A stretch of 17,924 nt of DNA from Clostridia bacterium (lineage in GTDB: Bacteria > Bacillota_A > Clostridia > Christensenellales > Aristaeellaceae). Positions 1-14,057 of this stretch are shown here, piece after piece. Each line of letters begins with the position of its first letter. Within the stretch, counting starts at the first letter, position 1. The notes below the pieces were generated by a model. The model saw only the letters and a program-made list of their open reading frames with translations. It was not told the DNA's origin and did not search any database. The stretch is from the NCBI GenBank assembly GCA_017525805.1, contig JAFXSH010000003.1, forward strand, positions 1 through 17,924, given 5' to 3'. Made by a program: the position numbers and the translations under genes.

Positions 1-1
1 C

Positions 2-283
2 GAGTACGCGGAAATCTTCCCCGAGCGGGTGAACACGGAATTTGTGCGGGTAATCAATCCCACCACCCTGCGCATGCGGGTGTGGGAGCGTGGCAGCGGG
101 GAAACCTTAGCCTGCGGCACCGGAGCCTGCGCCGCCGTGGCCGCGGCGGTGAAAACCGGCCTGTGCCCCACTGGGCGGGATATCGTGGTCAAATTGGCTG
201 GGGGTGACCTGACCGTAAACTGCACGGAGGAGCGCGTCATCCTCACCGGCGAAGTCACGTATGTATTTGAAGGAATCGCGTAA
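2..283 (+). CDS. dapF: Diaminopimelate epimerase, C-terminal part (5' end outside window)
   Basis: This is the 3' part of a gene entering from the left; the reading frame is open from base 2, so the GTG at 29 is only an internal codon. DapF interconverts LL- and meso-diaminopimelate, the last epimerisation before lysine and DAP-type peptidoglycan, in the cytoplasm without a cofactor. The diagnostic block GSGETLACGTGACAA is visible; it holds the second catalytic cysteine (ACGTG) and phosphate-contacting residues of the family. About 93 C-terminal residues of the usual ~280 are present, ending with a normal TAA. The gene points toward the spoVT remnant and shares a hairpin terminator with it. 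The identification is secure; only the missing 5' part is unknown. Confidence 0.95.
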   Translation, partial: EYAEIFPERVNTEFVRVINPTTLRMRVWERGSGETLACGTGACAAVAAAVKTGLCPTGRDIVVKLAGGDLTVNCTEERVILTGEVTYVFEGIA

Positions 284-324
284 TATACTTCATCACCGCT
301 TCGCTGACTGCCAGAGACAGCATT

Positions 325-366
325 AAAACCGCCCGGAAGGTTCGCAAACCCCTCCGTGCGGTTTTT
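325..366. terminator. Bidirectional intrinsic terminator between dapF and the recombinase-spoVT ORF
   Basis: The arms AAAACCGC (325-332) and GCGGTTTT (358-365) pair, extended inward by CGGAAGG against CCTCCG with one bulge. The A-run at one end and T-run at the other give U-tracts in both directions. It lies between the convergent stop codons at 283 and 370, as expected for a shared terminator. Confidence 0.85.
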
Positions 367-369
367 CGC

Positions 370-834
370 TTATTGCTCCATCTGGCGGCCCACGATGCCA
401 GCCGCCGTTTCCGCCACCTTGATTTCCGTATCGCCCATCCGGGCGCCCTGCTCCCGGGACAAAAGCAGCACCGCGCCGATGGCTTCCCCGTCCGCGATGA
501 TGGGCGACACCACCTGGGCCGTGTAGCCGGATACGTCCTCCTCGTTGGTCACGGGCACGATCCTGCCCGCGCCCGTGCGGTTGCTGCTCACCGTCTGCCG
601 CGCCTGAATAGCGCTTTCTAAATCGGGGCTGATGGGCTTATCCCATAGCTCTTTTTTGCTCACCCCGCTGGCCGCCACCACCTGGTCTCGGTCCACGATG
701 CACGCGATGTGCCCTAAGGACCGGAACAGCGATTCCGTGTAATCCTTGGCAAAGGAGCTCATTTCCCCAATGGGGGAATACTTCTTCAAAATCACTTCCC
801 CGTCCCGGTCCGTGTAAATTTCCAGCGGGTCACC
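370..834 (-). pseudogene. spoVT: spoVT, 5'-truncated, as the 3' end of the recombinase ORF
   Basis: About 154 codons match SpoVT from roughly residue 31 of the ~178-residue Bacillus protein to its end. Landmarks are GDPLEIYTDRDGEVILKKYSPIGE (closing half of the AbrB-type DNA-binding domain, split here only to name it), then a GAF-like domain with GHIACIVDRD, SGVSKKE, IADGEAIGAVLLLS and ETAAGIVGRQMEQ. SpoVT is a forespore regulator of sigma-G-dependent genes in spore formers. The first ~30 residues, forming the first half of the swapped-hairpin DNA-binding domain, are replaced by recombinase sequence, so this copy should not bind DNA normally. No independent start or ribosome site is visible; it could be made only as a fusion unless the intervening DNA is removed. 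It is convergent with dapF. Confidence 0.9.
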
Positions 835-2544
835 GTCGCTGATCGTATTGACACAAAAGGCTCTGTTCCGCGTGTTTTTGGAGCGCTGGAGCAGCATGAC
901 CTGTCCCTTTGTGCCTCGTTTAAAATTTACGGCTTCCCCTGTTTCCGCGTCCGTCACGGTGCCGGAATTCAGCAGGGCGTCGATATCCGCTTTCAGCTTT
1001 ACGTCGATGTGATCGGTGTAAATCAGAATTTCCTCCACCAGGAGCCCCAGGTCCCGGTTGTCCAGATGATCCTTTTCCAGGATTTCATCGAAGATTTGAA
1101 GGGCTGTCTTGGCTTTCCGGTTCACACGAATGATCAGGTTCCGCCGGTTCTGGTTCAGGGTGATCTGGTTTTGCAAGCCGGTGATGCGTTCCACCAGGCT
1201 GCTTTCCATTTCATCGTAGGTTTCTTCCAGCAAAGCCGCCTGTTCGGGATGCTTCATCAGATCGCGGATGCGCTGGCGCTTGGTGGCTTTCAGCTCCTCC
1301 TGCAAATCCTCCACCACGTCCGTCAGGTTCTTCACGCTGCGCTCCGCTTCGTCAATGTCCTCTTCCTCCTGGCTCAGCTCGCCGTTCAGCTTGTCGATCA
1401 TCCCTTGGGCATTGTCCCGCACCTTTTTCAGGTACATTTTCAGCAGCTCGTCCAGGGTGCTGGTCTTGGTGTAATGGCTGGTGCAGGCTTTCAGGCCCCT
1501 GCGGTGATATGCCCCGCAATGGTAAGCGTCCACCCCCGTGGCCCGGCTCATGGTGAACATGGGCGATCCGCAGTCCCCGCAGCGAAGAAAACCGGTGTAG
1601 GCATTCTCGTTTTTCTTGATTCCGGTATAATCGCTGGCGGCCCGGCGGTCAATCATATCCTTTACCGTGGCGAAGGTGCGGTAATCAATGATGGGCTGGT
1701 GATGGTTTTCGAGGACGATGTGCTCGTCCTCGTCCCGCTTCACATCCTTGCCGTTGATTTTCTTCCGGTAATATTTTCCCTGGCGCAGGGTGCCGATGTA
1801 AAAATCATTGGTCAGGATGGTCTGCACGCTGATGATGCTCCACTCCGGGCGGCACTTCCGGTGATACTCCCTGCCCTTCATTTCTACGCGAGTTTTTTCG
1901 CTCATCCGTGGCGTGGGGATCCCCTCGTCCGTCAGGCTGTTGGCGATGCGCTTGTACCCCCAGCCCCCCAAGTATCTTTGGTAAATCAGCCGCACAATTT
2001 CCGCTTCCGTGGGCACGATTTCAAACTGCTGGCTTTCCGTGACGATGTAGCCATAAGGCGCGGCGCAAATCCATTTCCCATCCTCCTGACGGCGGCGCAC
2101 CACGGCGCGCACCTTCTTGGATGTGTCGGTCACCGGCATTTCGTTGATCAGGAACTGGAATTGGATTTTCAGCCAATCGTCGTCATTGGGGTAATCGATG
2201 CCGTCGCCGATGGAAATGATGCGCACCCCCGCGTCCCGCAGGTCCTCCAGCTCCACCAGGCCCCGGCTGTTCCGGCGGGAGAAGCGGGAAAAGTCCTTCA
2301 CGATCAGGATGTCGATCTGGTGCGCCATCAGCTTCCTTCGCATCCGCTGATACCCGTCGCGCTGCTCAAAGGTGTAACCCGATTTATCCCTGTCCTCGTA
2401 AAACACCAATTCGCTTTCCGGGAACCGCTGCTTCACAAAGTCTGAAATGATGGCCTTTTGGTTCTCAATGGACGTGTTTTCCTGGTTCAGTTCATCGTCT
2501 ACCGAGATTCGGGCGTATCCCGCTATGGTAAATCGTTCTATCAA
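370..2544 (-). CDS. Large serine recombinase fused in frame to SpoVT C-terminal part
   Basis: The first ~570 residues are a large serine recombinase of the kind that integrates and excises clostridial elements. Numbering from the upstream TTG at 2559, it has a resolvase domain (GYARIS with catalytic Ser19, DKSG near 58-61, KDFSRFSRR at 88-96), a recombinase domain (~160-300), a zinc ribbon (Cys327/Cys330, Cys348, Cys359), a coiled coil (~385-475) and a basic tail. From about residue 576 (GDPLEIYTDRDGEVILKKYS) to the end (ETAAGIVGRQMEQ) it is plainly SpoVT. I prefer the TTG at 2544: GGAAGTG lies 6 nt upstream, whereas the TTG at 2559 has no ribosome site. The total length (724-729 aa) exceeds usual recombinases (~500-600) by the SpoVT part. 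The join could be an integration product, an evolved fusion, or an assembly artefact. Confidence 0.92.
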   Translation of the reverse strand: MIERFTIAGYARISVDDELNQENTSIENQKAIISDFVKQRFPESELVFYEDRDKSGYTFEQRDGYQRMRRKLMAHQIDILIVKDFSRFSRRNSRGLVELEDLRDAGVRIISIGDGIDYPNDDDWLKIQFQFLINEMPVTDTSKKVRAVVRRRQEDGKWICAAPYGYIVTESQQFEIVPTEAEIVRLIYQRYLGGWGYKRIANSLTDEGIPTPRMSEKTRVEMKGREYHRKCRPEWSIISVQTILTNDFYIGTLRQGKYYRKKINGKDVKRDEDEHIVLENHHQPIIDYRTFATVKDMIDRRAASDYTGIKKNENAYTGFLRCGDCGSPMFTMSRATGVDAYHCGAYHRRGLKACTSHYTKTSTLDELLKMYLKKVRDNAQGMIDKLNGELSQEEEDIDEAERSVKNLTDVVEDLQEELKATKRQRIRDLMKHPEQAALLEETYDEMESSLVERITGLQNQITLNQNRRNLIIRVNRKAKTALQIFDEILEKDHLDNRDLGLLVEEILIYTDHIDVKLKADIDALLNSGTVTDAETGEAVNFKRGTKGQVMLLQRSKNTRNRAFCVNTISDGDPLEIYTDRDGEVILKKYSPIGEMSSFAKDYTESLFRSLGHIACIVDRDQVVAASGVSKKELWDKPISPDLESAIQARQTVSSNRTGAGRIVPVTNEEDVSGYTAQVVSPIIADGEAIGAVLLLSREQGARMGDTEIKVAETAAGIVGRQMEQ

Positions 2545-2560
2545 TGCTATCACTTCCAAA

Positions 2561-2608
2561 TGAAGATTTCTTCATATATATTGTAACACAGAGAACGATC
2601 CTTGACAA
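2561..2608 (-). promoter_or_regulatory. Recombinase promoter with downstream palindrome
   Basis: On the minus strand TTGTCA (2608-2603) and TACAAT (2585-2580) are separated by 17 bp, each 5/6 to the sigma-70 consensus. The predicted start, near 2573, falls inside a 6-bp-arm palindrome, TGAAGA-TT-TCTTCA (2561-2574), placed where a repressor could block the promoter. The leader to the TTG at 2544 would be about 30 nt. Confidence 0.65.
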
Positions 2609-2623
2609 GATACGATTTTTCTC

Positions 2624-2663
2624 ATCGCCAAAGATATTTCCGCCACTGGCGGTCTTTGGCGAT
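2624..2663. repeat. Nested inverted repeat upstream of the recombinase promoter
   Basis: The outer arms ATCGCCAAAGA (2624-2634) and TCTTTGGCGAT (2653-2663) are perfect 11-bp inverted repeats. An inner perfect hairpin, CCGCCA-C-TGGCGG (2640-2652), abuts the right arm, with five extra bases on the left side only. No T-tract follows on either strand, so it is not a standard terminator; a protein-binding site upstream of the recombinase promoter is equally possible. Confidence 0.7.
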
Positions 2664-2729
2664 TCGTCCCTTACCAAGAAAGCTGCCTTTTTCATATATC
2701 ATATAATCATCTTCATCAAACAAGGTTGT

Positions 2730-2975
2730 TTAGATGACCGCCTTTTCATGTACCATTCTATCCTGCTCCAGCTTTTTCTTATTATACTGGAGCAGCTCCA
2801 GCGTCAGCTCCGATACATCCTCTTTGCCGGAGAAAAAAACGGATACCAGATACTTTTTTCTTTTGTATTCCGCGTACAGCGCTTTCAGTTTTTCTTTCGT
2901 CCCAGTGCTTTCCTGATCCGCATGGTTCAGCCACACGCAGACGATTTTTTCTTTTGCGTGTACGTCGATCTGCAT
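2730..2975 (-). CDS. Small conserved-looking protein of unknown function, element-type
   Basis: An 81-residue, charged, soluble protein beginning MQIDVHAKEKIVCVWLNHADQ and continuing with KLKALYAEYKRKKYLVSVFFSGKEDVSELTLELLQYNKKKLEQ. The alternating hydrophobic pattern suggests a small alpha/beta fold with two strands (IVCVWL, YLVSVFF) and flanking helices; no membrane segment or signal peptide is seen. The start is well supported: GGAGGTGAG sits 5 nt upstream of the ATG. I recall similar short proteins next to recombinases and relaxases in clostridial integrative elements, but cannot verify this here and give no function. It lies upstream of the recombinase in the same orientation, separated from it by the nested inverted repeat and promoter. 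Confidence 0.7.
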   Translation of the reverse strand: MQIDVHAKEKIVCVWLNHADQESTGTKEKLKALYAEYKRKKYLVSVFFSGKEDVSELTLELLQYNKKKLEQDRMVHEKAVI

Positions 2976-3590
2976 CCGTTCTCACCTCCCTCCTATTGTT
3001 TTCCTTCATCATATTTTTATACAGTTCATGTTTTCCCTGCACTGTTTTTATGCTTCCCATGAAAGCGCGTATATTGGATCCAGGCTGTTCAATTTTCAAG
3101 ATTCGCTTCGGCGCTGCCGCCAAATGTGTGCCTCGTACAATTCATGCGACCAGGAACATTCTGGTTTTCTTAGGACGGTTTACGCCGCACCAGATCACTT
3201 TAGGCATCCATGAAAGCAATTCACTTGTTCTTGCAAGCATTACAGAGTTTACCTGGTCACATAAACATTATACCATTCAATGAGAACAAATGTTGGTGTA
3301 TTTCCCACCCATTCTGCGGTATCTTTGGTGTATTTCCCACCCTTTTCTCAAATATACATGTATACATGGGATACTCGGTCATGGGAATACTTCACCAGTG
3401 CGGTCATAAAAAAGCATGTTTGCTTTTCCAGCACCATAAACATTATAATGGGACTATTCGCTCTCGGTTGGCGGAATTTCCACCATTCCCTCATCAATTA
3501 CTTTTCTCCTGACATTCCAGAACCTCTATCGTCTCTGCTTGATCAGTCTTTCGGTCCACAATTTGATCCCTCCTTCCTTTCGCCTCCATG
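2976..3590. other. AT-rich region without a convincing gene, 5' of the small minus-strand gene
   Basis: About 600 bases hold only short ORFs on both strands, none with a ribosome site plus recognisable protein. A minus-strand stretch from 3123 (reading RILKIEQPGSN, then HELYKNMMKENN) looks mildly coding-like but runs through the ribosome site of the 2730-2975 gene, so it is at best an upstream reading frame. The region carries two copies of an 18-bp repeat, a perfect palindrome TATACATGTATA (3353-3364), and two copies of CATAAACATTATA (3260-3272, 3435-3447). On the minus strand the latter read TATAATGTTTATG, each containing a consensus -10 hexamer. A regulatory or leader role for the minus-strand genes is an inference. 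Confidence 0.5.
3293..3342. repeat. Two direct copies of an 18-bp repeat, 32 bp apart
   Basis: TTGGTGTATTTCCCACCC occurs at 3293-3310 and identically at 3325-3342, with 14 bp between. The 32-bp period is about three helical turns, which fits an operator or iteron pair bound on one DNA face. On the minus strand the pair lies immediately upstream of a TATAAT (3272-3267), as an activator site would. Confidence 0.75.
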
Positions 3591-3596
3591 ATAAAC

Positions 3597-3654
3597 TTTA
3601 AAGGTGAAAAAACCCTTCACCTTTAAATCAGGTTTTTCAAAAAAGTTTTCGACA
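3597..3654. repeat. Hairpin-TTCGACA module, copy 1
   Basis: A perfect 12-bp hairpin has arms TTTAAAGGTGAA (3597-3608) and TTCACCTTTAAA (3616-3627) with a 7-nt loop. A T-rich/A-rich spacer follows, then TTCGACA at 3648-3654, about 20 nt from the hairpin. Two further copies keep the same layout; see the related finding. Confidence 0.75.
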
Positions 3655-3736
3655 AAAATTGACAAGCAATTGAATCGACATTTTTCGTCATTTCCTTTCT
3701 TTATTCTAGGAATAGAGCACTTCATGGAGCAGAGCA

Positions 3737-3818
3737 CCCTTCCCATTCCGCATGGTAAATGTTAAAGGTGCAAAATCCCTGCACCTTTAAAATCATTTTC
3801 TAAAAAAATCGTTCGACA
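3737..3818. repeat. Hairpin-TTCGACA module, copy 2, with conserved left flank
   Basis: A hairpin TTAAAGGTGCA (3762-3772) / TGCACCTTTAA (3780-3790) with a 7-nt loop is followed after 21 nt by TTCGACA (3812-3818). Its left flank, 3737-3759, begins CCCTTCCCATT and ends CATGGTAAA. It recurs at 5507-5529 with 21 of 23 bases identical, beyond the ATPase gene. Confidence 0.75.
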
Positions 3819-3835
3819 TAATTCGCATTGAAGAA

Positions 3836-3911
3836 TTAAAACGGCGGTGAACGTGAATAAATAATGTTGACAGCCGTTTTAATTGCGATTATAATTTAAA
3901 GCGGCGGTGAA
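3836..3911 (+). promoter_or_regulatory. Perfect-consensus promoter of the ATPase gene with flanking repeats
   Basis: TTGACA (3867-3872) and TATAAT (3890-3895) are both exact consensus with an optimal 17-bp spacer. An inverted repeat, TTAAAACGGC (3836-3845) / GCCGTTTTAA (3873-3882), brackets the -35 box. A direct repeat, TTAAAACGGCGGTGAA (3836-3851) and TTAAAGCGGCGGTGAA (3896-3911), 15/16 identical and 60 bp apart, brackets the whole promoter. So strong a promoter inside symmetric sites suggests repression by a dimeric regulator, possibly by looping. The leader to the ATG at 3962 is about 60 nt. Confidence 0.8.
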
Positions 3912-3961
3912 ATGTAAATCATCTTCTTCGCAGCCCGTTAAAGTGATCGGGGGAATGGAAA

Positions 3962-5395
3962 ATGATCGGGCGGGAAAAAGAAGTCAAGGAACTGAACAAA
4001 CTATATGACCGGAACCGCGCGGAGCTGGTAGCTGTCTACGGACGACGCCGCGTGGGGAAAACGTATTTGATCGACGAGACCTTTGCTGGCAGGATCACAT
4101 TCCGCCATGCCGGTCTTTCCCCAGCGGATGAGGACGCGAAGGGGCTGCTTCGGGCGCAGCTGGATCATTTTTATAATTCATTGATTCTATTTGGCATGGA
4201 GAAAAGCAAAAAGCCGGATAACTGGCTGGATGCTTTTCTGCTGTTGGAGCAATTCCTGCAAAAAATCGATGATGGTTCAAGACAGCTGGTGTTTCTGGAT
4301 GAACTGCCCTGGCTGGACACGCCGCGGTCAGGATTTATCCGAGCCTTTGAAGGCTTCTGGAACAACTGGGGCTGCCATCGGAAAAACCTGATGGTCATTG
4401 TGTGCGGCAGCGCCAATTCCTGGATGATGAACAGTCTGATCAACAATCATGGGGGCCTGTATAACAGGGTGACTTATGAAATCAAGCTCGCGCCTTTTAC
4501 GCTGCAGGAGTGTGAAGCGTTCTTCCAGGCGAACAATATCAGGCTTTCGAGATATGATATTGCCCAGAGCTACATGATCTTCGGCGGCATTCCATATTAT
4601 CTGGGGTATTTCGACGGCGAATACAGCTTAGCCCAGAATGTGGACAGGATCATTTTTGCCAGAAACGCGAAGCTGAAAGACGAGTATGACAGGCTGTACC
4701 AATCGGTGTTTATCAACCCGGACACGGAAAAGGCCATCGTAACCTTCCTGGCAACACGCAATGCCGGCTTCACCAGAAAAGAAATCACCGAAAAGCTCGG
4801 CATGTCTGACGGAGGCAGGCTGTCCAAGAGCCTGAACGCGCTGATTGCCAGCGATTTTGTGGTGAAATATGTGCCCTTCGGCATGGGAAAGCGGGAGGAA
4901 CACTATAAAGTTGTCGATCCGTTTTGCCTGTTCTATCTGCATTTTATCCGTGATATAAGCGGAGGCAGCGAATCCTTCTGGCAGGAAAATGTGACCGCCC
5001 AGCCCGTTGTTACCTGGCGGGGTTTGGCCTTTGAACACGTTTGCTTTAATCACATTCCCCAAATCAAAAAGGCGCTGGGCATTTCCGGCGTTATTACCTC
5101 CGCCTCCGCATGGTCCAAACGGGAGGATGATCAGGAAGGAACACAAATCGATCTCCTGCTGACCCGGAACGATAACGTTCTGAACATGTGCGAAATCAAG
5201 TTCTATGGCGGAAAATATACCGTAAAAAAGGACGATTACCTGACGCTGCTCGGCAGGCAGGAACTTCTGATGGGCAAAGTCAACCCCAAAATAACGATTC
5301 GCAGCACGCTCATTACCACATACGGCCTGACGCAAAATGAATACAGCGGTGCATTTACCAACGTGATCACGCTGGATGATCTGTTCGCTGAATGA
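3962..5395 (+). CDS. AAA+ ATPase of the ATPase_2/DUF234 type with PD-(D/E)XK-like C-terminus
   Basis: A 477-residue P-loop ATPase. Visible are Walker A GRRRVGKT (27-34), Walker B QLVFLDE (108-114) followed by LPWLD, a sensor-1-like VIVCGSAN (145-152) and the FGGIPYYL block (~207-214) typical of this family. A winged-helix-like segment follows (~255-310; FTRKEITEKLGMSDGGRLSKSLNAL split across it). The C-terminal domain contains QIDLLL (Asp397) and CEIKFY (Glu411, Lys413), the D...ExK pattern of PD-(D/E)XK nuclease folds, as in DUF234 proteins. Family members are often multicopy in Clostridia and archaea; their role is not settled. The start ATG follows GGGGGAATGGAAA. The gene stands alone between repeat-rich spacers, under its own strong promoter. 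No downstream U-tract terminator is apparent. Confidence 0.88.
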   Translation: MIGREKEVKELNKLYDRNRAELVAVYGRRRVGKTYLIDETFAGRITFRHAGLSPADEDAKGLLRAQLDHFYNSLILFGMEKSKKPDNWLDAFLLLEQFLQKIDDGSRQLVFLDELPWLDTPRSGFIRAFEGFWNNWGCHRKNLMVIVCGSANSWMMNSLINNHGGLYNRVTYEIKLAPFTLQECEAFFQANNIRLSRYDIAQSYMIFGGIPYYLGYFDGEYSLAQNVDRIIFARNAKLKDEYDRLYQSVFINPDTEKAIVTFLATRNAGFTRKEITEKLGMSDGGRLSKSLNALIASDFVVKYVPFGMGKREEHYKVVDPFCLFYLHFIRDISGGSESFWQENVTAQPVVTWRGLAFEHVCFNHIPQIKKALGISGVITSASAWSKREDDQEGTQIDLLLTRNDNVLNMCEIKFYGGKYTVKKDDYLTLLGRQELLMGKVNPKITIRSTLITTYGLTQNEYSGAFTNVITLDDLFAE

Positions 5396-5506
5396 AATAA
5401 CCTATGACTCAAAGCATTTGAAAAAAGCTCTCTGGCGATAGGTTCACGAGAACAATGATCGCGCAGGAGCTTTCTATGAACGTTACTGATCTCATAGGCG
5501 ATAACG

Positions 5507-5529
5507 CCCTTCCCATTTCCCATGGTAAA
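5507..5529. repeat. Second copy of the 23-bp flank repeat
   Basis: This matches 3737-3759 at 21 of 23 positions in the same orientation, from CCCTTCCCATT to CATGGTAAA. The two copies enclose the ATPase gene and its promoter. Read on the minus strand, both copies start an M-x-N-G-K-G peptide. Confidence 0.7.
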
Positions 5530-5558
5530 AAACAACTTTGGCTCAATGCAAAAGTTTG

Positions 5559-5601
5559 TGGGGGAAACTGCTCTTTGGATGCCCAAGAGCGGTTTCCCCC
5601 A
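5559..5601. repeat. 17-bp-arm hairpin
   Basis: The arms TGGGGGAAACTGCTCTT (5559-5575) and AAGAGCGGTTTCCCCCA (5585-5601) pair throughout, with one T-G wobble, around a 9-nt loop. No T-tract follows on either strand, so this is not a textbook terminator. It could be a transcript 3'-end stabiliser, a protein site or a small non-autonomous repeat. Confidence 0.75.
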
Positions 5602-5850
5602 CGCCCCCTCCCGAGAAAGCAGTGGAAGAATAAAAAAGCAATTTTTCTCCCTTAATTTCTTTCGAGGTAAAAATGCAGATGTATGAGTGTTCCCTCTCAA
5701 AATTTTTCATTGAACCACAACTTTTTCAAAAGAAGTTGTCGACAAGAAGCGACAAGGGATTTGGGGGATCATCACTTAACATTTTTAGCCTTTTTTACTT
5801 GGAAATATATAGAGCCAAGCCAATTTTCTTTCCATCACCTATTGAAAAAG

Positions 5851-5906
5851 TTAAAGCGGCAAAAAACTTGCCTCTTTAAAATATATTCTTGAAAAATCGT
5901 TCGACA
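5851..5906. repeat. Hairpin-TTCGACA module, copy 3
   Basis: The arms TTAAAGCGGCAA (5851-5862) and TTGCCTCTTTAA (5868-5879) pair with one mismatch. TTCGACA follows at 5900-5906, about 20 nt beyond the hairpin, as in copies 1 and 2. The arm sequence differs from the others while pairing is kept, which points to selection on structure. Confidence 0.7.
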
Positions 5907-6132
5907 TTTTTCACATTCCCTATTCCTTCGTTCAAGTCAATCACATGGCAGCAGTCCGCCACCTGTTTCGTCAGTTGGAAAAACATGCTTCGTTCGCATA
6001 CTCCCTATTTTCTATGGTACACCCCATTCCGCCGATAAGTCCGGCGGATTCAGAAGGAATTTTATAAAGCCTTTTCGACAAAAATGGAATTCTTTGCATT
6101 ATGTAACATAAGTGTTTTTCGTAAAATGATAG

Positions 6133-6171
6133 AAAAAAAGCAGACGATGGCCATCAATTTCAGCCGTCGTC
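6133..6171 (-). terminator. Intrinsic terminator of the glycerol-1-phosphate dehydrogenase gene
   Basis: GACGATGGC (6143-6151) pairs with GCCGTCGTC (6163-6171), nine pairs with one wobble and an 11-nt loop. On the minus strand the hairpin is followed by TGC and seven T residues (6139-6133). It lies about 130 bp beyond the stop codon at 6300. Confidence 0.75.
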
Positions 6172-6299
6172 CGTTTTCCCGGCGGGGGTTATTTATCGTG
6201 TATGAGCGAAGAAGTATCTTACCAAATATTGCTCTATAAATTTTGAAATAGGGTCACCCGGATAGTAATTTCTGGCTTTATAAGCGAAATACGCTGAAA

Positions 6300-7406
6300 T
6301 CACAGCCAGCAAACCGGAGCATGCGCCCTCTCAAATAGCCATAGTACACTATACCGATCTTTAAGATCTTTCGCATACAAAATGGCATCATTGATTTTCT
6401 CTTTTCCATAGAAAGCGTTGAATTGATTGATATCCAGCCCGATGGCCTGAACCATCTGAATCATTTCTTTTTCCGTAGGGGCTTCTCTCAGAATCTTGCA
6501 AATTGATCCCCATTTTCCGGCAATACTGAAAAAATCATTTTTTTCATGCCATCCCAGTTTTTTCTGAAGATGAATCACGCCGTCTGCTGAAGAGGTATAT
6601 ATCCTGCGGATTTCTTTTTCCCACGCTGCGCTATCGAATGACTGCCGTGCAGGGATGCTATTGGCCAGTATTTCACGCAATCTTGCTGTTACTACCGATG
6701 AATAGAGAACGTCGGTGCCATGCGGATAATACGGTTCGTTGTGCAATATACCGGTAATCTCAAAATAATGAGATAAATGATGTTCGCTGCCGGAGGCGGG
6801 GCGGGAATTTCCCACAAAGCTCATGGCAATTCCGACAATCAAAAGTGCTTCCATGAGCGCCGCGATTGCCTGCTCATCGCGCTGCAATATGCCGCTTGCC
6901 AGCGATTCCACTTTTTTTGCGGTCTCATACACCAGATCGTATACTGCTTGGCAAAAGTATTCGCCGTTGATCAACGCGCTCAGTTTCCAGTCATTCAGGC
7001 AGGAATATTTGCCAATGATATCGCCCCAGCCCGATTGAAGCATTTCCATCGGCGCGTTTTTCAGGATATCAGTATCGCCTATGATCGCTTTGGGCGGTCT
7101 GGCTCCCAGCGTGATCTTCATTCCTTCCAGGATCAGTGCTGCCCCTACAGAGGCAAATCCATCCATGGAGGGCGCAGTAGCCACGATCATATAAGGCAAA
7201 CCATGCTGAAAGCTCACATGCTTGCATAGATCATTGATGACCCCTGAGCCAAGGCCGACGATCAAGTCCGTATCCGGCGTGATACAGGCGGTGATTTCGG
7301 TAATTGCCTGCTCATTTGGAATCACTACTCGCCCGTTTCCATTCAGTACAAGTGGGCATGCTTTTGCTTGAATCTGCGTATACACTTTTTCCCCGTATCC
7401 AATCAT
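6300..7406 (-). pseudogene. sn-Glycerol-1-phosphate dehydrogenase family (AraM/EgsA), 5'-truncated
   Basis: About 367 codons match the AraM/EgsA branch of the iron-alcohol-dehydrogenase/dehydroquinate-synthase superfamily, which reduces dihydroxyacetone phosphate to glycerol-1-phosphate with NAD(P)H. Visible are GLGSGVINDLCK (dinucleotide-binding turn), APSMDGFAS, GWGDIIGK (metal Asp), SEHHLSHYFE (metal His) and PHGTDV (second metal His). The C-terminal RDRYTVL-like ending is present as DRYSVLWLFE. Family members run to ~390-430 residues; the first ~60-70, up to just before GEKVYTQI, are missing. Upstream of ~7406 the frame continues only as antisense of the GH3 gene, with no start or promoter. 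Base composition is AT-richer than the GH3 side. The 3' end and terminator are intact. The family call is firm; the exact substrate is not. Confidence 0.85.
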
Positions 7407-8777
7407 CTGGAATACAGCGACTGGAACTACTACGAGCCCGACAAGGTAACCCAACTGTCCCGTGCCGACTGGGAAGGTACCTGGCCCAAAGAATACAAGG
7501 ATATGACCGCCCCTGCCTCCATGCTGGCTGACCTGAATGGCAAGTATTACGAGGTCAAAAAGGATGACGACACCTCCAAGATCGTGTTCGGCGCGAACAA
7601 CGGGCTGAAATTCTATGATCTGGCCTTCCGGGATTTCGACGACCCCGACTGGCAGAAGCTCATTGACCAAATGACCATCGACGAATGTCTGGGCCTGCTT
7701 TGCTACGGCGGAAACGAGTTCCGCGATATTCCCTCCATCGGCTTTATCCGCGGCTCCTTCACCGAAAACTCTGGCAACGGTATGCAGTCTGAAATGTGTG
7801 ACGCCCGCGTGGACGCGCCCTGGGCTGTAAGCAAGAAGGACAACAACGGCCACTTCTATCTGGAGCTGTACGCCACTGCTCCCACTGTGGCTTCATCCTT
7901 TGACCCGAGCCTGCAATTCCGCATGGGCGAAGAAGTAGGTCTGCAGGCGCTGATCGTGGGCCTGCCCATCCTGTGGGGCCCTGGCCTGAACACCCACCGT
8001 ATGGCTTACAACGGCCGGAACGGTGACTACTACTCTGAAGACCCGATCCTCACCGGCAACACCGGCATGGAATTTGCCATCGGCGCATTCAAATACGGCC
8101 TGCTGGCTTCTCCCAAGCACTTTGCTTTTAATGACCAGGAAACCAACCGCGGCGGCGTGGCCCCTTTCATGACCGAGCAGCGCGCCCGAGAGGTGGAGCT
8201 CCGCGCCTTCCAGATTCCCATGGAAGCGAATAAGTACGACGCCAAAGCGCCCGAATATTGGAACGGTGAAGAAAACCACGACTTTGGCATGCGCGGCATG
8301 ATGACCTCCTTCTCCAAGATCGGCGGCGTGGAATGCACTGCCAGCGAAGGCCTGATCACCGACATCGCCAAGAACGAATGGGGCTTCAAGGGCTACGCCG
8401 TCACCGACATTGCCGACGATGTGGATCTGTTCGCCGCTGTTGCCAACTCCGGTGTGACTGGCTATGACCTGCGCGGTCGCTTCTCTGAATCCGGCTACGA
8501 TACCCAGACCAACGACGGCCAACCCATCAGCGCGGAAATGTTTGCGGGCGATGCCAACATCCTCACAAAGATTAAGGAAGCCGCTCACAACACCATCTGG
8601 GCCTTCTGCCAGACCAACCTGATGAACGCCTACGATTCCTCCACCGAATTCCAGTCCGTCACCACCTGGTGGCGTGTGGCTTACAACGTCGCCATCCTGA
8701 CGACCGGTGGCCTGTTCCTGGCTTTCGCAACGCTGTATACCGTTTCCGTGATCAAGAGCAAGAAGGAGGGCAAGTAA
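7407..8777 (+). CDS. GH3 beta-glycosidase, N-terminally truncated, catalytic domain plus C-terminal membrane segment
   Basis: The ~456 codons from LEYSDWNYY onward align with the last ~420 residues of the GH3 enzyme at 14217-17240. Shared blocks are LSRADWEGT, GPGLNTHRMAYNGRNGDYYSEDP, KHFAFNDQE (substrate-binding Lys-His, codons near 8115-8120), EQRAREVELRAFQIP and GFKGYAVTDIADD, whose Asp (codon 8406-8408) is the expected nucleophile. A transmembrane helix (ILTTGGLFLAFATLYTVSVI) and basic tail close the protein. The N-terminal membrane anchor, alpha/beta domain and FnIII-like domain present in the paralogue are absent, and with them probably the general acid/base. An ATG at 7368 is in frame, but that DNA belongs to the dehydrogenase side of the junction and lacks a ribosome site. 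It is probably a non-functional remnant, or an artefact of a join near 7,400. Confidence 0.85.
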   Translation: MEYSDWNYYEPDKVTQLSRADWEGTWPKEYKDMTAPASMLADLNGKYYEVKKDDDTSKIVFGANNGLKFYDLAFRDFDDPDWQKLIDQMTIDECLGLLCYGGNEFRDIPSIGFIRGSFTENSGNGMQSEMCDARVDAPWAVSKKDNNGHFYLELYATAPTVASSFDPSLQFRMGEEVGLQALIVGLPILWGPGLNTHRMAYNGRNGDYYSEDPILTGNTGMEFAIGAFKYGLLASPKHFAFNDQETNRGGVAPFMTEQRAREVELRAFQIPMEANKYDAKAPEYWNGEENHDFGMRGMMTSFSKIGGVECTASEGLITDIAKNEWGFKGYAVTDIADDVDLFAAVANSGVTGYDLRGRFSESGYDTQTNDGQPISAEMFAGDANILTKIKEAAHNTIWAFCQTNLMNAYDSSTEFQSVTTWWRVAYNVAILTTGGLFLAFATLYTVSVIKSKKEGK

Positions 8778-8778
8778 G

Positions 8779-9207
8779 ATGTTGAAAAAGCAACGGGTTT
8801 CCTTCTATGTGGCTGCCGCGGCCGCCTTGTGCGCGCTGCTGGCGCTGGTTCTCTTCATCGTCAGCAACGGCACCGTGGGTTATCCCATCCTGAACAGTTC
8901 CTTGGCCATCTATTGCACCCTAGGCGCTTTCACTGCCTGCGTTTGCTCCCTGCTGGCCCAGATAAAAAACTGGAATGAGCTGCTTGTATCTCTTCTGCGG
9001 CTGGTGGCCCTAGGCCTCCTTTTCGTGGCTCTGACCGTAACGTTGGCCGACCGCGCGGTGGTGGCTGGCGGCCTGTTCACCTGGAACGGCCTGGACAAGT
9101 ACGCCTGGAGCGCTTTCTATACCGGCGTCACCTGCATCGCGTTTCAGGTGGCCGCATCCTTGTTGATGGTGGTTTCCGGCTGCATGAAGCAAGGCGCGAA
9201 AAAATAA
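8779..9207 (+). CDS. Small four-helix membrane protein, unknown function
   Basis: 142 residues with four likely transmembrane helices (about 9-29, 42-62, 66-89 and 107-134), short loops, and Lys-rich ends (MLKKQR, KQGAKK) that place both termini in the cytoplasm. The ATG is one base after the GH3 stop codon, with GGAGGG about 10 nt upstream inside the GH3 end, so the two are translationally coupled. The tight spacing suggests a partner of the membrane-anchored GH3 enzyme, but the second GH3 gene in the window has no such neighbour. I do not recognise the family. Its 5' operon partner is truncated, so expression now depends on an unknown upstream promoter. Confidence 0.8.
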   Translation: MLKKQRVSFYVAAAAALCALLALVLFIVSNGTVGYPILNSSLAIYCTLGAFTACVCSLLAQIKNWNELLVSLLRLVALGLLFVALTVTLADRAVVAGGLFTWNGLDKYAWSAFYTGVTCIAFQVAASLLMVVSGCMKQGAKK

Positions 9208-9236
9208 TCTCCCTCTCTCTTAAACTGTATCGTTTT

Positions 9237-9267
9237 GCCCTGATCTTCTCGGAAGGTCAGGGCTTTT
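9237..9267 (+). terminator. Intrinsic terminator after the GH3-membrane protein pair
   Basis: GCCCTGA (9237-9243) pairs with TCAGGGC (9257-9263), extended inside by CTTC/GAAGG around a TCGG-type loop, and is followed by TTTT. Its last bases overlap the first LytTR-box repeat of the next promoter. Confidence 0.8.
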
Positions 9268-9329
9268 ACGATGTAAAACCGATCAGTTACGATGTGCCTA
9301 TTGCTTCTGCCTTTTGATTTTGCTATGCT
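9263..9329 (+). promoter_or_regulatory. LytTR box pair and promoter of the two-component operon
   Basis: Direct repeats CTTTTACGATGT (9263) and CAGTTACGATGT (9284) start exactly 21 bp apart. TTGCTT (9301-9306) and the extended -10 TGC-TATGCT (9324-9329) follow with a 17-bp spacer; the -35 begins 17 bp after the start of the second repeat. The 9-bp-plus-12-bp arrangement is that of AgrA/LytTR sites, so autoregulation by the downstream regulator is inferred. Confidence 0.75.
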
Positions 9330-9390
9330 GTATATGTAAAAGAATCAAGGGAATCATCCATCTCAATGCTCAAAACGAGGGGATATAAGA

Positions 9391-10104
9391 ATGCTGAATA
9401 TTATCATTTTGGAGGATCAGACGGAACAGGCGGAACGCCTGTCCCAGATGCTGAAAAAATATGCGGAGGCCCATGAAGGTTTTTCCTATCAATTAAAGCT
9501 GTATGACCGCTCCATTCCCTTCCTCACTGAATACAAGTGCGACGCGGACATTCTGTTCATGGACATTCAAGTGCCGGATATGCTGGGCATCGACGCGGCC
9601 AAGCGCGTTCGGCAGATGGATAACCGGGTGATGATCATTTTTATCACCATGCTCACCCAGTACGCCATCGAGGGCTATTCTGTAGGCGCGTTCGACTACG
9701 TGCTCAAGCCCGTGCGCTACGAGGAATTTTCCACCAAGATGGACCGGGCGTGCCGGATGCTGGCCCATCAGAACACCTCCATGACCCTGGAGGTGCGTAC
9801 CAAGGAAGAGATCCGCCGCGTCAACGCGGACGAAATCACGTTCATTGAAGTATCCAACCATGACGTGCTCATCCATACGGACAGCGAAATCATCCGGCAA
9901 TGGGGCAACCTGAAAAGCTACGAAGACAAGCTGGCCCCCGTCCATTTCGTGCGGTGCAGCGCATCCTTCCTGGTGAATTTGAAATATGTGCGGGCGGTGA
10001 ACGGAAACACCGTCGTGGTACACGGCCACGAGCTGCCCGTCAGCGCAAGCAAGCGCAAGGAATTTCTGATGGCCCTGGCGCAATACAAAGGAGGCAGCCG
10101 GTAA
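9391..10104 (+). CDS. LytTR-family response regulator (AgrA/LytR-like)
   Basis: 237 residues. The receiver domain (1-~122) has the acidic pair E8-D9 in IILEDQ, phospho-acceptor Asp58 in ILFMDIQVPD, Thr86 in FITML and Lys106 in YVLKPV. A LytTR DNA-binding domain (~133-232) shows VNADEITFIEVSNHDVLIHT and FVRCSASFLVNLKYVRAV. LytTR proteins bind paired direct repeats on one DNA face next to the -35 box and activate transcription when phosphorylated. A GAGGGG ribosome site precedes the ATG by about 9 nt. The gene is co-transcribed with the sensor kinase and overlaps it by one base (TAATG). Matching repeat pairs stand before this gene and before three downstream genes for exported proteins, so these are its likely targets. 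Confidence 0.95.
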   Translation: MLNIIILEDQTEQAERLSQMLKKYAEAHEGFSYQLKLYDRSIPFLTEYKCDADILFMDIQVPDMLGIDAAKRVRQMDNRVMIIFITMLTQYAIEGYSVGAFDYVLKPVRYEEFSTKMDRACRMLAHQNTSMTLEVRTKEEIRRVNADEITFIEVSNHDVLIHTDSEIIRQWGNLKSYEDKLAPVHFVRCSASFLVNLKYVRAVNGNTVVVHGHELPVSASKRKEFLMALAQYKGGSR

Positions 10105-11414
10105 TGAGCTATATGCCTGTGTGGTATCAGCAGGGGCGCAGCGCGCTGCTGCTTTTGCAGTCGGTAATCGGGCTGCTGCTGGTATCCTATCCCATGAAGC
10201 GGCGGAGCCTCTTTTATCCGCGGCTGATCCTGTCCGTGCTGGCTGGGTGCGCGGTACAGTATCTCGCCCGGGGCATCTACATCGTGGGCAGTACGCCTCT
10301 GGCCATGGTCACCCATGCCGCCGCCGCGCTGCTGGTGTATCTCACGCTGAACGTGATCACCTGGTTCTGCTATGATGAAAGCCTTTGGACGGTGCTGTTC
10401 ATGGCCGCCACCGGCTATATTGCGCAGGACATTGCGGGCACTGTGAAAACCTTGGTCCGGCAAATCGAATGGATAAACAGCTTTTCCAGGCAGCCGGAGG
10501 GCGGCATCCTGGTCGTGGATCTGGCTTGCTACGGCGCGGTATACATCTTGCTGTTTTTCGCACTGCGGCCCTTTGTGCGGAACCGGGAGGAGCACTTCGA
10601 TAACAAGCTGAAAGCCGTTTTTTCCGTGTTCGTCCTTTTGCTGTGCATCGGTATGGCGCGGCTCACTCAGGATAACCCGGACAGAAACCGGCAGGCTGTG
10701 ATCGCCGAAGCGCTGTTTCAGATCGTGATCGACGTGCTGGTGATCGCCCTGCAGTTCGGCGTGATGGAGCAGGCGCGGCTCGCCAGCAACATGGAAACCA
10801 TGCGGGAACTGGTGCACACCCAGCGGGTGCAGTACGAGGCCAGCAAGGAAAGCGCCCAGCTGATCAACGAAAAGTACCACGACTTAAAGCACCTGATCAA
10901 ATCCTTCCGGGGCACGGTGCCCCAGGAGCAATTGGATAAGCTCAAGCAATCCATCGCCGCTTACGAGCGGCCCGCCAATTCGGGCAATGAAGTATTGGAC
11001 GTGCTGCTGGCCGAAAAAATCGGCATCTGCCAACAAAGGAATATTGTGCTCACCTGTTCTCTGGGCATGACGGACTTTTCCTTCGTGGAGGAATTGGACT
11101 TGTATTCCCTGTTCCAGAACGCCCTGACCAACGCCATCAACGCCGTGTCCACTCTGCCGGAAGGCGTGGAACGCTTCATTTCCCTGTCCTCCGTCCGGGA
11201 CGGGAATATGCTCACCATCCACATGGAAAACCCCTGCGAGGAGGATATTGCCTTTGTGGACGGCCTGCCCCAAACCAAGGAGGACCCGGACTGGCACGGC
11301 TTTGGCATGAAGAGCATGAATCGCATCGCGGAAAAGTACAACGGCATGCTCACCGCCGAGCAGCGGGGGAAAATGTTCTTCCTGGATATTCTTTTGCTGG
11401 CTCCGGAACAATAA
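10104..11414 (+). CDS. GHKL sensor histidine kinase (AgrC-like)
   Basis: 436 residues; the ATG overlaps the regulator's stop (TAATG) and follows GGAGG by 9 nt. The N-terminal half is a polytopic membrane sensor with about six helices (~14-30, 41-60, 66-86, 93-112, 135-155, 170-187; possibly another at 203-221). The cytoplasmic half has a coiled-coil linker (~222-255), the H-box YHDLKH with phospho-acceptor His259, an N-box FQNALTNAINA (337-347) and a G-box HGFGMKSM (398-405), as in the AgrC/HATPase_c_5 group. Members often sense peptides, but no agrB- or agrD-like gene is visible here, so the signal is unknown. It should phosphorylate Asp58 of the adjacent regulator. A hairpin terminator follows. 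Confidence 0.93.
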   Translation: MSYMPVWYQQGRSALLLLQSVIGLLLVSYPMKRRSLFYPRLILSVLAGCAVQYLARGIYIVGSTPLAMVTHAAAALLVYLTLNVITWFCYDESLWTVLFMAATGYIAQDIAGTVKTLVRQIEWINSFSRQPEGGILVVDLACYGAVYILLFFALRPFVRNREEHFDNKLKAVFSVFVLLLCIGMARLTQDNPDRNRQAVIAEALFQIVIDVLVIALQFGVMEQARLASNMETMRELVHTQRVQYEASKESAQLINEKYHDLKHLIKSFRGTVPQEQLDKLKQSIAAYERPANSGNEVLDVLLAEKIGICQQRNIVLTCSLGMTDFSFVEELDLYSLFQNALTNAINAVSTLPEGVERFISLSSVRDGNMLTIHMENPCEEDIAFVDGLPQTKEDPDWHGFGMKSMNRIAEKYNGMLTAEQRGKMFFLDILLLAPEQ

Positions 11415-11478
11415 TTACGATGTAAAACCTACCAATTGCGCGGTTCGCCTTGCGGCGGGCCGCGTTTTTTTATACGAT
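11412..11478 (+). promoter_or_regulatory. LytTR box pair and promoter upstream of exported protein gene 1
   Basis: Repeats TAATTACGATGT (11412) and the weaker CAATTGCGCGGT (11433) start 21 bp apart. TTGCGG (11450-11455) and TACGAT (11473-11478), spacer 17, fall at the same offsets (+17 and +40 from the second repeat) as in the other sites. The site begins within the kinase stop codon and is interleaved with the kinase operon's terminator. Confidence 0.65.
11439..11471 (+). terminator. Intrinsic terminator of the two-component operon
   Basis: CGCGGTTCGCC (11439-11449) pairs with GGCGGGCCGCG (11454-11464), including G-U pairs, with a short TTGC loop, followed by seven T residues (11465-11471). 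It overlaps the second LytTR repeat and the promoter of the next gene. Confidence 0.8.
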
Positions 11479-11525
11479 CTTTTTACAGAATACGCCGTTG
11501 AAGGCGAAAAAAGGAGGGATTCCCC

Positions 11526-12248
11526 TTGAAGAAAATGCTTGCTCTGCTGCTGGCGGTGCTGCTCCTGGGCGTGTGCTTCGCCCAGGCCGAAAGCGCCGAA
11601 TCCGTGTATGATGTTCTGACGCATCTCATGAACGGCCGGACCTTTACCCTCACCGTCACCGCCGAATCCGAAACGGAGAAACTGGCGAACGTGATTGCCC
11701 AATGCGGCGCCGTCACCTGCGCCCTGCGGCAGGAGAACGACGAAATCCTGCTGACCGCCGCCTGCGATGGGGACGCTTACCTGAACGCCGCCGCCACGAA
11801 GGACGGCGTGCGCTTTGAAACCAACCTGATCGAGAACGGAACCTTCTCCAGCGATTGGGCCGCCCTGGCCCCGGTGATCACCTGGGAGGCTGGCATGTTC
11901 AGCGTTACCATGACCGGTCCTGATCATGAATTGATCCGGTTCACCTGCAAGGCGTCCGGCGAATCTCCCGATGACTGCCAGGTAGAAATCGACATCGGTT
12001 ACATCACCGGCCCCGGCAACGTGCACAGCCTGTGGGACGGCATCACCAACGAGGACGGCGAAAGCAGCCGGGAATTCTATTTCACCTTCAGCGAGGAAGA
12101 ATATGGCATGGAATGTGAAGGCGCATCCTCTACGGAAACCGCAGAGGACGGCAGCCTGATCATCACCCGCGAGGAAACCGGCGTGCTCACCTATCAGGAA
12201 GATGAATTGGGCGAAATCATCTTCCGGTCCACTCTGACCATCCAGTAA
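11526..12248 (+). CDS. Exported protein of unknown function (LytTR-box gene 1)
   Basis: 240 residues from a TTG start, with AAGGAGGG ending 7 nt upstream; an ATG three codons in would lose the basic n-region and is less likely. The N-terminus KKMLALLLAVLLLGVCFAQAES is a signal peptide, probably cleaved after AQA (Cys16 is not in a clear lipobox). The mature part is acidic (E- and D-rich) and dominated by alternating hydrophobic segments, suggesting a beta-rich domain. Examples are FTLTVTAES, MFSVTMTG and REFYFTFSEEE. No catalytic motif or known family is recognised. The paired-repeat promoter makes it a likely target of the adjacent response regulator. A short gap with no terminator separates it from the esterase promoter, so read-through is possible. 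Confidence 0.82.
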   Translation: MKKMLALLLAVLLLGVCFAQAESAESVYDVLTHLMNGRTFTLTVTAESETEKLANVIAQCGAVTCALRQENDEILLTAACDGDAYLNAAATKDGVRFETNLIENGTFSSDWAALAPVITWEAGMFSVTMTGPDHELIRFTCKASGESPDDCQVEIDIGYITGPGNVHSLWDGITNEDGESSREFYFTFSEEEYGMECEGASSTETAEDGSLIITREETGVLTYQEDELGEIIFRSTLTIQ

Positions 12249-12249
12249 A

Positions 12250-12317
12250 CAATTACGATGTAAAAAAGCGCAGTTACGCGGTTCACCTTGATTGACTCCC
12301 TATCGCCTTTGTAAAAT
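12250..12317 (+). promoter_or_regulatory. LytTR box pair and promoter upstream of the esterase gene
   Basis: CAATTACGATGT (12250) and CAGTTACGCGGT (12271) start 21 bp apart. TTGATT (12288-12293), 17 bp after the start of the second repeat, and TAAAAT (12312-12317) follow with an 18-bp spacer. Confidence 0.72.
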
Positions 12318-12356
12318 AGCATTACAAAATCTCCCAAGAAAAAGAAGGAGGAACCC

Positions 12357-13301: not shown

Positions 13302-13302
13302 G

Positions 13303-13369
13303 CAATTACGATGTAAAAATCATCAGTTACGATGTACGCCTTGTAACGAAACGCCCCATTTGGTACATT
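13303..13369 (+). promoter_or_regulatory. LytTR box pair and promoter upstream of exported protein gene 3
   Basis: CAATTACGATGT (13303) and CAGTTACGATGT (13324) start 21 bp apart, the cleanest pair in the window. TTGTAA (13341-13346) and TACATT (13364-13369), spacer 17, sit at +17 and +40 from the second repeat, as at the other sites. Confidence 0.78.
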
Positions 13370-13424
13370 ATTCCCGCAAAGACGACCTGCCAAGGCAGGT
13401 TGAGATAATGAAGGAGGATTCCCC

Positions 13425-14030: not shown

Positions 14031-14057
14031 TCCCGCTTGCCTGACCTGAATTCCTTG

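Follow-up and report, generated by a model that had tools for sequence, protein, structure and literature searches.

A recombinase gene that reads into a sporulation regulator

Why should one uninterrupted reading frame begin as a DNA recombinase and end as the sporulation regulator SpoVT? The question is raised by a stretch of 17,924 nucleotides from a Clostridia bacterium of the Aristaeellaceae (GenBank assembly GCA_017525805.1, contig JAFXSH010000003.1, positions 1 to 17,924), the whole of which is called the window in the following. On its minus strand, a single open frame of 729 amino acids at 370-2559 is a large serine recombinase (LSR) up to residue ~572 and then continues as SpoVT. The comparisons described below suggest that the window holds the right-hand junction of a site-specific island in spoVT, and it is very likely, with good support, that such islands are mobile and that their recombinase trades its own tail for the C-terminal domain of SpoVT. 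The parts of the locus are the following:

370-825, minus strand: C-terminal part of SpoVT beyond the core, comprising the remainder of the DNA-binding hairpin and SpoVT_C, a GAF-type domain; a host gene part read as the recombinase C-terminus (Pfam, NCBIfam, PDB)
826-834, minus strand: shared attachment core GGTGACCCG, with the predicted crossover inside GGNGACC; identical at both element ends elsewhere and in intact spoVT
835-853, minus strand: element-side arm of the right attachment site attR, TGTCAATACGATCAGCGAC, inverted-repeat partner of the other-end arm in relatives (junction comparison)
835-2559, minus strand: LSR body (catalytic domain, recombinase domain, zinc ribbon, coiled coil), exact start codon uncertain (Pfam, PDB)
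29-283, plus strand: 3' end of dapF as host flank, converging on spoVT and cut by the window start (TIGR00652, 90.3 bits)

Pfam assigns Resolvase (PF00239) to residues 12-163 of the frame, Recombinase (PF07508) to 183-306, Zn_ribbon_recom (PF13408) to 321-376, and SpoVT_C to 599-728, all above the curated cut-offs. Residues 573-728 correspond to positions 27-180 of the NCBIfam model spore_V_T with 185.9 bits, the whole-protein cut-off being 235.9 bits and a lower score being expected for a gene without its start, and residues 28-178 of the SpoVT structure 2w1t align to residues 573-729. A first-pass annotation, made from the sequence of the window alone, had proposed an in-frame fusion with a join at GDP and a crossover near 831-840; both alignments bear out the join, so that the SpoVT part begins at residue 573, the G of GDP, and the shared core of nine nucleotides was located at 826-834. 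To the right of the join, ordinary host chromosome follows, as dapF ends at 283 on the opposite strand. The N-terminal half of SpoVT was not found in the window, and in the closest genome (G001) it lies on another contig.

Recurrence of the fusion

The fusion is by no means restricted to the window. In a protein search with 8000 scored homologues, all 120 that were listed carry the recombinase domains together with SpoVT_C, at 63-99% identity, and at the level of genome contigs the fusion was found in 51 of 79 loci, which with the window makes 52 fused sequences. The other 28 loci comprise three with an LSR that faces a reversed SpoVT start (L040-L042), three LSR pieces cut by contig ends (L046, L055, L056), and 22 SpoVT genes without an LSR, 21 of them intact and one truncated by the end of its contig (L077). 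The fusion is carried by the isolate Anaerotignum lactatifermentans DSM 14214 (L054) and is also present on contigs of 4,308,696 (G124) and 3,971,881 bases (G169). Within the 101 genomes of the G013 family, 16 have the SpoVT C-half in a long frame (719-818 amino acids; the LSR was seen directly in 12 of these), 60 have an intact or almost intact gene (including a partial one and another with a stop), and 25 have neither. The G001 family with its 100 genomes includes 7 that are fused, 39 intact, 2 partial, and 2 with a C-half that is not joined to this LSR, and the remaining 50 gave no match to the SpoVT C-terminal part. In G191 (L168/L169), SpoVT is cut at the same REGDP codons and this LSR is not fused to it, which is probably due to another element at the same point.

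As the fusion recurs in homologues, in an isolate genome and on contigs of about 4 Mb, it is neither a chance event nor an assembly error, and the in-frame fusion of the first-pass annotation, one open frame with the Pfam domains of both proteins, is real. One could nevertheless think of an assembly chimera or a stable dead fusion, since the window lacks the N-terminal half and contains a further odd gene junction at ~7,390, and since there are a few broken copies (the tail in G020, the recombinase in G032). The occurrence in dozens of assemblies, the contigs of about 4 Mb, the exact shared core and the relatives with empty sites contradict this as a general explanation and rule out a chimera as such, and it is therefore extremely improbable.

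The missing start of SpoVT

If the fusion results from an insertion, the start of SpoVT should be found elsewhere in the same genome. The genomes of 33 of the 54 fused or inverted loci, chosen by hand, were searched for both halves. The C-half was found in all 33 (30 fused, 3 not fused) and a separate SpoVT start of ~33 residues, matching the query up to residue 33-40, in 27. A match that spans the whole of SpoVT was found in none of them, the longest other match having 54% identity over residues 1-86 (G019). The first-pass annotation had anticipated that the missing ~30 N-terminal codons are encoded elsewhere in the genome, and the start of ~33 codons indeed lies at the other element end wherever a contig spans the element; it had also reasoned that an intact spoVT elsewhere, together with a lacking N-terminal half, would speak for a stable fusion or an assembly error, and the 33 genomes show the opposite, with no whole SpoVT and the N-terminal half in 27.

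In 11 of the 27 genomes, the start lies upstream of the C-half on the same contig and strand, and in the other 16 the two are on different contigs. The 11 islands delimited in this way measure 7.0 (G024), 13.1, 15.7, 16.6, 19.9, 21.1, 22.0, 26.3, 29.3, 40.5 (G026, with inverted LSR) and 56.3 kb (G011), and further one-contig islands from later searches have 16 (G086), 40 (G124), 27 (G169) and 34 kb (G223). In G026, both spoVT halves are thus on one contig, 40.5 kb apart, with the recombinase inverted; there and in G027 and G028 (L040-L042), the LSR has the opposite orientation, with its 3' end facing the SpoVT start, and is not fused, and the arms are near-symmetric. In two genomes, the N- and C-terminal halves lie on different long contigs (G031 C34/C9, G021 C8/C23), which would mean islands of more than 140 kb or chromosome rearrangements. 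In G125 (C31, 102300-107500, L137), three tandem copies of the SpoVT start, one of them 5'-shortened and two with a full recombinase-type tail, are found upstream of an intact spoVT, and these look like scars of the left attachment site attL from repeated insertions.

Attachment site and empty sites

A typical left junction reads ..GAG GGTGACCCG TCACAGATAACATTG.., a typical right junction ..GTCAATGTTATCAGTGAC GGTGACCCG CTGGAAATT.., and intact relatives have ..GAG GGTGACCCG CTGGAAATT.. at this position. The comparison of 33 left and 30 right junctions revealed a core GGNGACC that is common to both ends, and the arms are inverted repeats, as expected of the element-borne attachment site attP of an LSR. 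The insertion point is formed by the EGDP codons of spoVT, at residues ~31-33. When the halves were joined by a script, an in-frame SpoVT of 178-184 amino acids without any stop resulted in 30 of 30 genomes. That an LSR element uses spoVT as its attachment site, and that excision would restore the gene, had both been proposed from the window; the same core and inverted-repeat arms at both ends substantiate the former, and the joins are as they should be for the latter.

A comparison with relatives that have an intact spoVT had also been suggested. The intact locus L072 is collinear with the split genome G008 over 10,155 bases to the left of the core (74% identity) and 5,570 bases to the right (87%), and the island of 20 kb that lies between these flanks in G008 is absent, as expected for an empty site. 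L063 and L037 have 7.4 kb in common on the right and 189 bases on the left.

Exchange of the C-termini

At the left end of the islands, the frame that begins with the SpoVT start runs on as GDP-SQTTLEKWQKFSFSMLDLAKRMGWE-stop and variants thereof, which continues the frame of the recombinase. This predicted tail has 25-28 residues in 32 of 33 attL copies and 32 residues in one. From tail codon 10 onward, the proportions of nonsynonymous (pN) and synonymous (pS) differences are 0.36 and 0.82, and 26 of the 33 copies contain stops in the +1 frame. Since the length is kept, pN is below pS, and the +1 frame contains stops, the tail is a conserved protein segment. The 33 copies are from 38 SpoVT starts, with G020 (frame-shifted tail), G025 (cut by a contig end) and G026-G028 (inverted) left out. 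With the SpoVT start plus tail as query, 7985 matches were obtained at E<=0.001, of which those beyond the best 120 may include plain AbrB-family proteins, and all 22 that were read show the chimera.

The predicted attP product, i.e. the recombinase with its own tail, found 126 proteins when used as query. Among the 120 listed, 118 carry SpoVT_C, one (P0325) changes frame inside SpoVT, and one (P0241) is a natural LSR of 602 amino acids that has the predicted tail and ends in ..VISDGDPSQTTLAWWEQFSFGILNLEKRQGWDRTS. It is encoded on a contig of 6,749 bases, matches PF00239, PF07508 and PF13408 above cut-off, and its AlphaFold model has long helices and a mean predicted local distance difference test score (pLDDT) of 58.0. 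A circle itself was not seen. With this one tailed protein among the 120 listed, the attP form does occur naturally, if rarely. The assumption that the C-terminus of the recombinase differs between the integrated and the circular form thereby found a natural example, as P0241 ends in its own tail and the fusions end in SpoVT_C.

The fusion might also be functional in itself, in that the GAF-type domain SpoVT_C controls activity or direction of the recombinase while it is integrated, the native tail taking its place in the circle. The frame is kept in 120 of 120 and in 118 of 119 fused copies listed in the two protein searches, and the tail is a conserved coding sequence, which would fit this idea, but the element is present in G026-G028 with an inverted and unfused recombinase, and the AlphaFold model is of low confidence and uninformative on the tail. 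A functional fusion is thus rather unlikely.

Mobility and cargo

The distances of LSR and SpoVT_C correlate over 43 fused sequences (Mantel r 0.49, none of 2000 permutations as high; nine of the 52 with cut or broken LSR were left out), but no correlation is seen within the clade of the window (10 loci, r 0.09, 303 of 2000 permutations as high). The LSRs of L018 and L024 have a distance of only 0.03 and the host SpoVTs one of 0.43. L001 and L002 have near-identical SpoVT parts (0.01) with LSRs that are 28% apart, and the SpoVT C-half of L002 is identical in protein sequence to that of the intact L057. The window itself is 95.8% identical to L001, and this similarity is confined to 370-5476. 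These patterns indicate that spoVT islands are mobile and have moved between species. The picture of a fixed skin-like element, as drawn initially, does not hold in this respect, given near-identical LSRs in diverged hosts and empty sites in close relatives.

The cargo, named by eye unless a family is given, varies and includes membrane and polysaccharide genes (G024, G124), ATPases, and a DNA methylase (G008; PF01555). A relaxase would be expected of an integrative mobilizable element; three clusters of relaxases are encoded within 10 kb upstream of the LSR in 7, 6 and 3 of 49 loci, and one member scanned per cluster matched PF03432, PF03389 and PF01076, respectively, above cut-off; among the four open reading frames (ORFs) of the complete 7 kb island of G024, none resembling these relaxases was seen by eye. 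In the window, one cargo gene has been assigned:

3962-5395, plus strand: AAA-type ATPase (PF01637), with a close relative inside the complete 15.7 kb island of G002 (Pfam and comparison)

A scan of viral contigs found no relative. In INPHARED, 415 records matched, one of them above 60% identity, and the two best are short unverified human-gut scaffolds. L120 ends before the core and shows no circle, and L121 has a SpoVT_C fusion at 45% identity. Plasmid records gave 301 matches, all below 60% identity. A phage origin was rejected in view of the lack of viral-contig relatives and of matches to the attP pattern, yet phage-derived parts are possible, as the island of G124 contains a gp19-like phage tail-tube gene (PF06841, L135:13929-14408) amid its polysaccharide-like cargo and the islands have not been scanned as wholes for phage genes.

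Further observations concern the remainder of the window. At 17314-17895 on the minus strand, where the window ends within a gene, a C-terminal piece matches PF14287 (DUF4368) and probably belongs to a second, different recombinase. A repeat of ~41 nucleotides starting with TTACGATGTAAAA occurs in four copies between cargo genes, at 9266, 11415, 12253 and 13306. At ~7368-7402, a minus-strand gene resembling glycerol-1-phosphate dehydrogenase meets a truncated plus-strand GH3 gene, and this odd junction may be a deletion, an island boundary, or a local misassembly.

Control region

Two features of the window lie upstream of the recombinase gene:

2580-2608, minus strand: sigma-A-like promoter TTGTCA-17-TACAAT (consensus match only)
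2730-2975, minus strand: protein of 81 amino acids, member of a family found upstream of the LSR; candidate recombination directionality factor (RDF) by position only (hidden Markov model family)

The family of small ORFs (about 70-110 amino acids) was detected upstream of the LSR in 34 of 49 loci including the window, 9 of these 34 having been used to build the model and some loci having flanks too short to tell. In 26 cases, the small ORF is within 350 nucleotides on the same strand, in five at 0.8-2.8 kb, and in three on the other strand. The 81-residue protein of the window has no match in Pfam or NCBIfam, and by its position it is a candidate for an RDF like SprB or CD1234. The LSR promoter is sigma-A-like, i.e. 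of the housekeeping type, with TACAATATTATCWG-type sequences, and its -10 motif recurs in many of the 28 loci that were printed. The skin recombinase of C. difficile is constitutive as well, and cell specificity comes from the RDF (PMC5025042); a vegetative LSR promoter is therefore compatible with developmental control. The -10 region CAATATTATCTG resembles the attP arm CAATGTTATCAG in many loci; two mismatches or fewer were counted in 28 of 47 loci, with 3.95 expected by shuffling, the loci being related and the best match in the window having 3 mismatches. It is possible that the recombinase represses its own gene via this arm-like promoter.

Proposed mechanism

The sequences establish the insertion point, both junctions, the in-frame restoration, the empty sites, a natural recombinase of the attP form, and mobility, and on this basis the following mechanism is proposed. 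The LSR would integrate the island at the conserved EGDP codons of spoVT, using an attP located within the gene of the recombinase itself, ~26 codons ahead of the natural stop. The C-termini would thereby be swapped on integration, as the recombinase loses its own tail and gains the C-terminal domain of SpoVT, and the SpoVT start gains the recombinase tail, resulting in an ORF of roughly 58-62 amino acids. In excision, the same enzyme, probably directed by the small upstream protein as an RDF, would recreate an uninterrupted spoVT together with a recombinase that ends in its own tail. We think that at least some cells of the population regain spoVT by excision, because most hosts keep their sporulation genes and both halves are in frame and constrained.

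Several observations weigh against this mechanism. Six of the 33 genomes (G004, G009, G010, G016, G018, G032) have no N-terminal fragment and gave only longer, weaker AbrB-like matches, either due to gaps in metagenome-assembled genomes or due to a real loss. In G078 (C23, L138/L139), the halves are in the reverse order, with the fused LSR-SpoVT C-half preceding the SpoVT start by ~18.6 kb and sharing its strand, and the intact L057 and the split G002 align over only 207 bases to the left and 503 bases to the right of the core. There are broken copies, with a frame-shifted tail in G020 and a recombinase in two frames in G032. The attP form is represented by one of the 120 proteins listed, its pattern had 0 matches in viral contigs, and in the AlphaFold model of P0241 the tail has no confident fold (pLDDT 24-27). 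The recombinase promoter looks vegetative in a scan that covered sigma-A-like patterns. In many pairs, the recombinases are closer to each other than the hosts are, and the purifying selection on spoVT could predate a recent insertion. Excision itself is a prediction from sequence comparison.

Host sporulation and sigG as a second target

Most hosts of the split gene retain sporulation genes. Full-length sigG is present in 28 of the 33 split genomes; another 4 have it in two pieces and one lacks it. A spoIVA match above cut-off was obtained for 27 of them and one to spo0A for 30, and the 15 controls with intact spoVT have sigG in 15, spoIVA in 15 and spo0A in 12 cases. Of 44 split genomes, 38 have genes for small acid-soluble spore proteins. 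G124 has no SpoVT_C other than the fused one. In G031 (C33, C8, C24, C32; L130-L133), the C-half of spo0A is found twice, with receiver halves at contig starts, and the gene may be duplicated or split in this genome.

Both parts of spoVT are constrained. The median ratio of nonsynonymous to synonymous substitution rates (dN/dS) of the C-half is 0.036 for the 8 sequences of the window clade and 0.066 for 21 relatives with an intact gene, and the N-terminal fragment has a pN of 0.055 and a pS of 0.676 (33 copies). With all 52 fused sequences included, the median (0.43) comes close to saturation, and the close clade was used instead. The 90 pairs that look vertically inherited have a median dN/dS of 0.31, mostly at high dS, and in the closest ones (L026/L027/L038) the protein sequence of the C-half is unchanged. 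Such constraint is unlike that of a long-dead gene, although a recently interrupted gene could look the same.

The forespore sigma factor gene sigG is a second target. In G018, G019, G027 and G032 (L122-L129), the four split genomes with sigG in two pieces, it is cut at GVP|MI, at residues ~90-95, and in 6 of the 101 genomes of the G013 family (G069, G087, G093, G051, G098, and again G018) the best sigG match starts at residue 88-93. A different LSR of ~570 amino acids that has its own stop adjoins the sigG C-half in G018 and G032, and that of G032 matches PF00239, PF07508 and PF13408. Beside this LSR, a Mob_Pre relaxase (PF01076) is encoded in G018 and a similar ORF was seen by eye in G032. 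No LSR was seen within 1.2 kb of the sigG piece in G027, and no match to the small-ORF family was found beside the sigG recombinases.

It may be that the islands are excised in a programmed manner at a set stage of sporulation, like skin. As SpoVT is a forespore regulator, this would have to occur in the predivisional cell or the forespore, and the circle would be kept and reinserted on germination, as in the case of Listeria comK. The largely retained sporulation gene sets, the lack of a full-length spoVT match in the 33 genomes, the strong constraint on both halves, and the interruption of a second forespore gene would all agree with this, and SpoVT is essential for sporulation of B. cereus according to PMC5061766. 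However, no sporulation-specific promoter was seen among the patterns tested, which were sigma-A-like ones alone, and with their varied cargo and occasional relaxases the islands resemble ordinary mobile islands. Programmed excision is thus a serious possibility that falls somewhat short of even chances.

The islands may instead be of a plain mobile kind for which spoVT is a conserved landing site, in hosts that can dispense with SpoVT or sporulate poorly, and excision would then be rare and independent of sporulation. Their mobility, their presence and absence among close relatives, the relaxase families, and the 50 of 100 genomes of the G001 family without a match to the SpoVT C-terminal part speak for this, as does the finding that spoVT mutants of B. 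subtilis still form spores (PMC5061766). That the split halves keep frame and constraint and that genes for small acid-soluble spore proteins are so frequent in split genomes is less easily reconciled with it, and plain islands are almost as probable as not. A link of any kind between the islands and sporulation is conceivable at just under even chances. More doubtful is a reversible switch in the inherited cell line, in which spoVT islands and the separate sigG elements would be excised before or in the forespore, rebuild the regulators, persist as circles, and reinsert after germination, with the direction set by the exchange of the tail for the ligand-binding domain of SpoVT. If this were true, one crossover would toggle both a host regulator and the enzyme that makes the crossover.

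Comparison with known systems

In the mechanism proposed here, the spoVT islands share essential traits with skin, SP-beta, vfbin, vrin, gin and yin, where a recombinase element likewise splits a sporulation gene (sigK, spsM, spoVFB, spoVR, gerE and yabG, respectively) at a short core into joinable halves. Like these, they intervene in a sporulation gene of which both halves are kept (27 of 33 genomes) and can be joined in frame (30 of 30). Such elements are known from mother-cell genes, yabG being one of these. The sigK/skin system of C. difficile is described in PMC5025042 and yin in PMC10747680, and gin is also a non-phage element with a 9-nucleotide core (PMC5595907). According to PMC4191935, the earlier elements interrupt mother-cell genes, and since they are excised in the mother cell alone, the spore genome retains the element. 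For spoVT, expression of the target in the mother cell can probably not be assumed, as SpoVT is a forespore protein under control of sigma-G in Bacillus (PMC5061766). The second difference is that the recombinase gene of the spoVT islands itself crosses the attachment site.

By sequence, the closest LSR with a solved structure is the SP-beta integrase SprA/YokA (RDF SprB/YotN; PDB 9dxh and 9dxd, query residues 12-465). We know of no fusion of this integrase with a host gene. Excision of SP-beta restores spsM (PMC4191935). An attachment site inside the integrase gene, with integration changing the gene, is also known from the archaeal suicidal integrases of the SSV1 type, but these are tyrosine recombinases that are split in two, and they have been called exclusive to archaea (PMC8371274). 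The spoVT enzyme does not belong to this class, in which integration inactivates a tyrosine recombinase, since it is a bacterial serine recombinase that keeps its catalytic domain intact when integrated and exchanges only a short tail for a host domain. The comK prophage of Listeria (active lysogeny) also inserts into a regulator gene and is excised in cells that are not terminally differentiated (PMC5025042), whereas the spoVT islands are not evident prophages, considering the single gp19-like gene in G124. A literature search that covered subscription journals and preprints thinly found no paper on spoVT or sigG elements.

Significance

Spores are a route of transmission for gut Clostridia. 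With the widespread spoVT family and the sigG elements, there are recombinase elements in these bacteria that depart from the mother-cell pattern as it is described in PMC4191935. A bacterial integrase gene that carries its own attachment site extends to bacteria what a 2021 review called exclusive to archaea (PMC8371274), and the recombinases constitute a large set of LSRs with a known and conserved target site. The cultured type strain and the genomes with contigs of about 4 Mb make the question of excision directly testable. For annotation, it has to be considered that spoVT, and sometimes sigG, will look absent or fused in these genomes although the genes may be functional.

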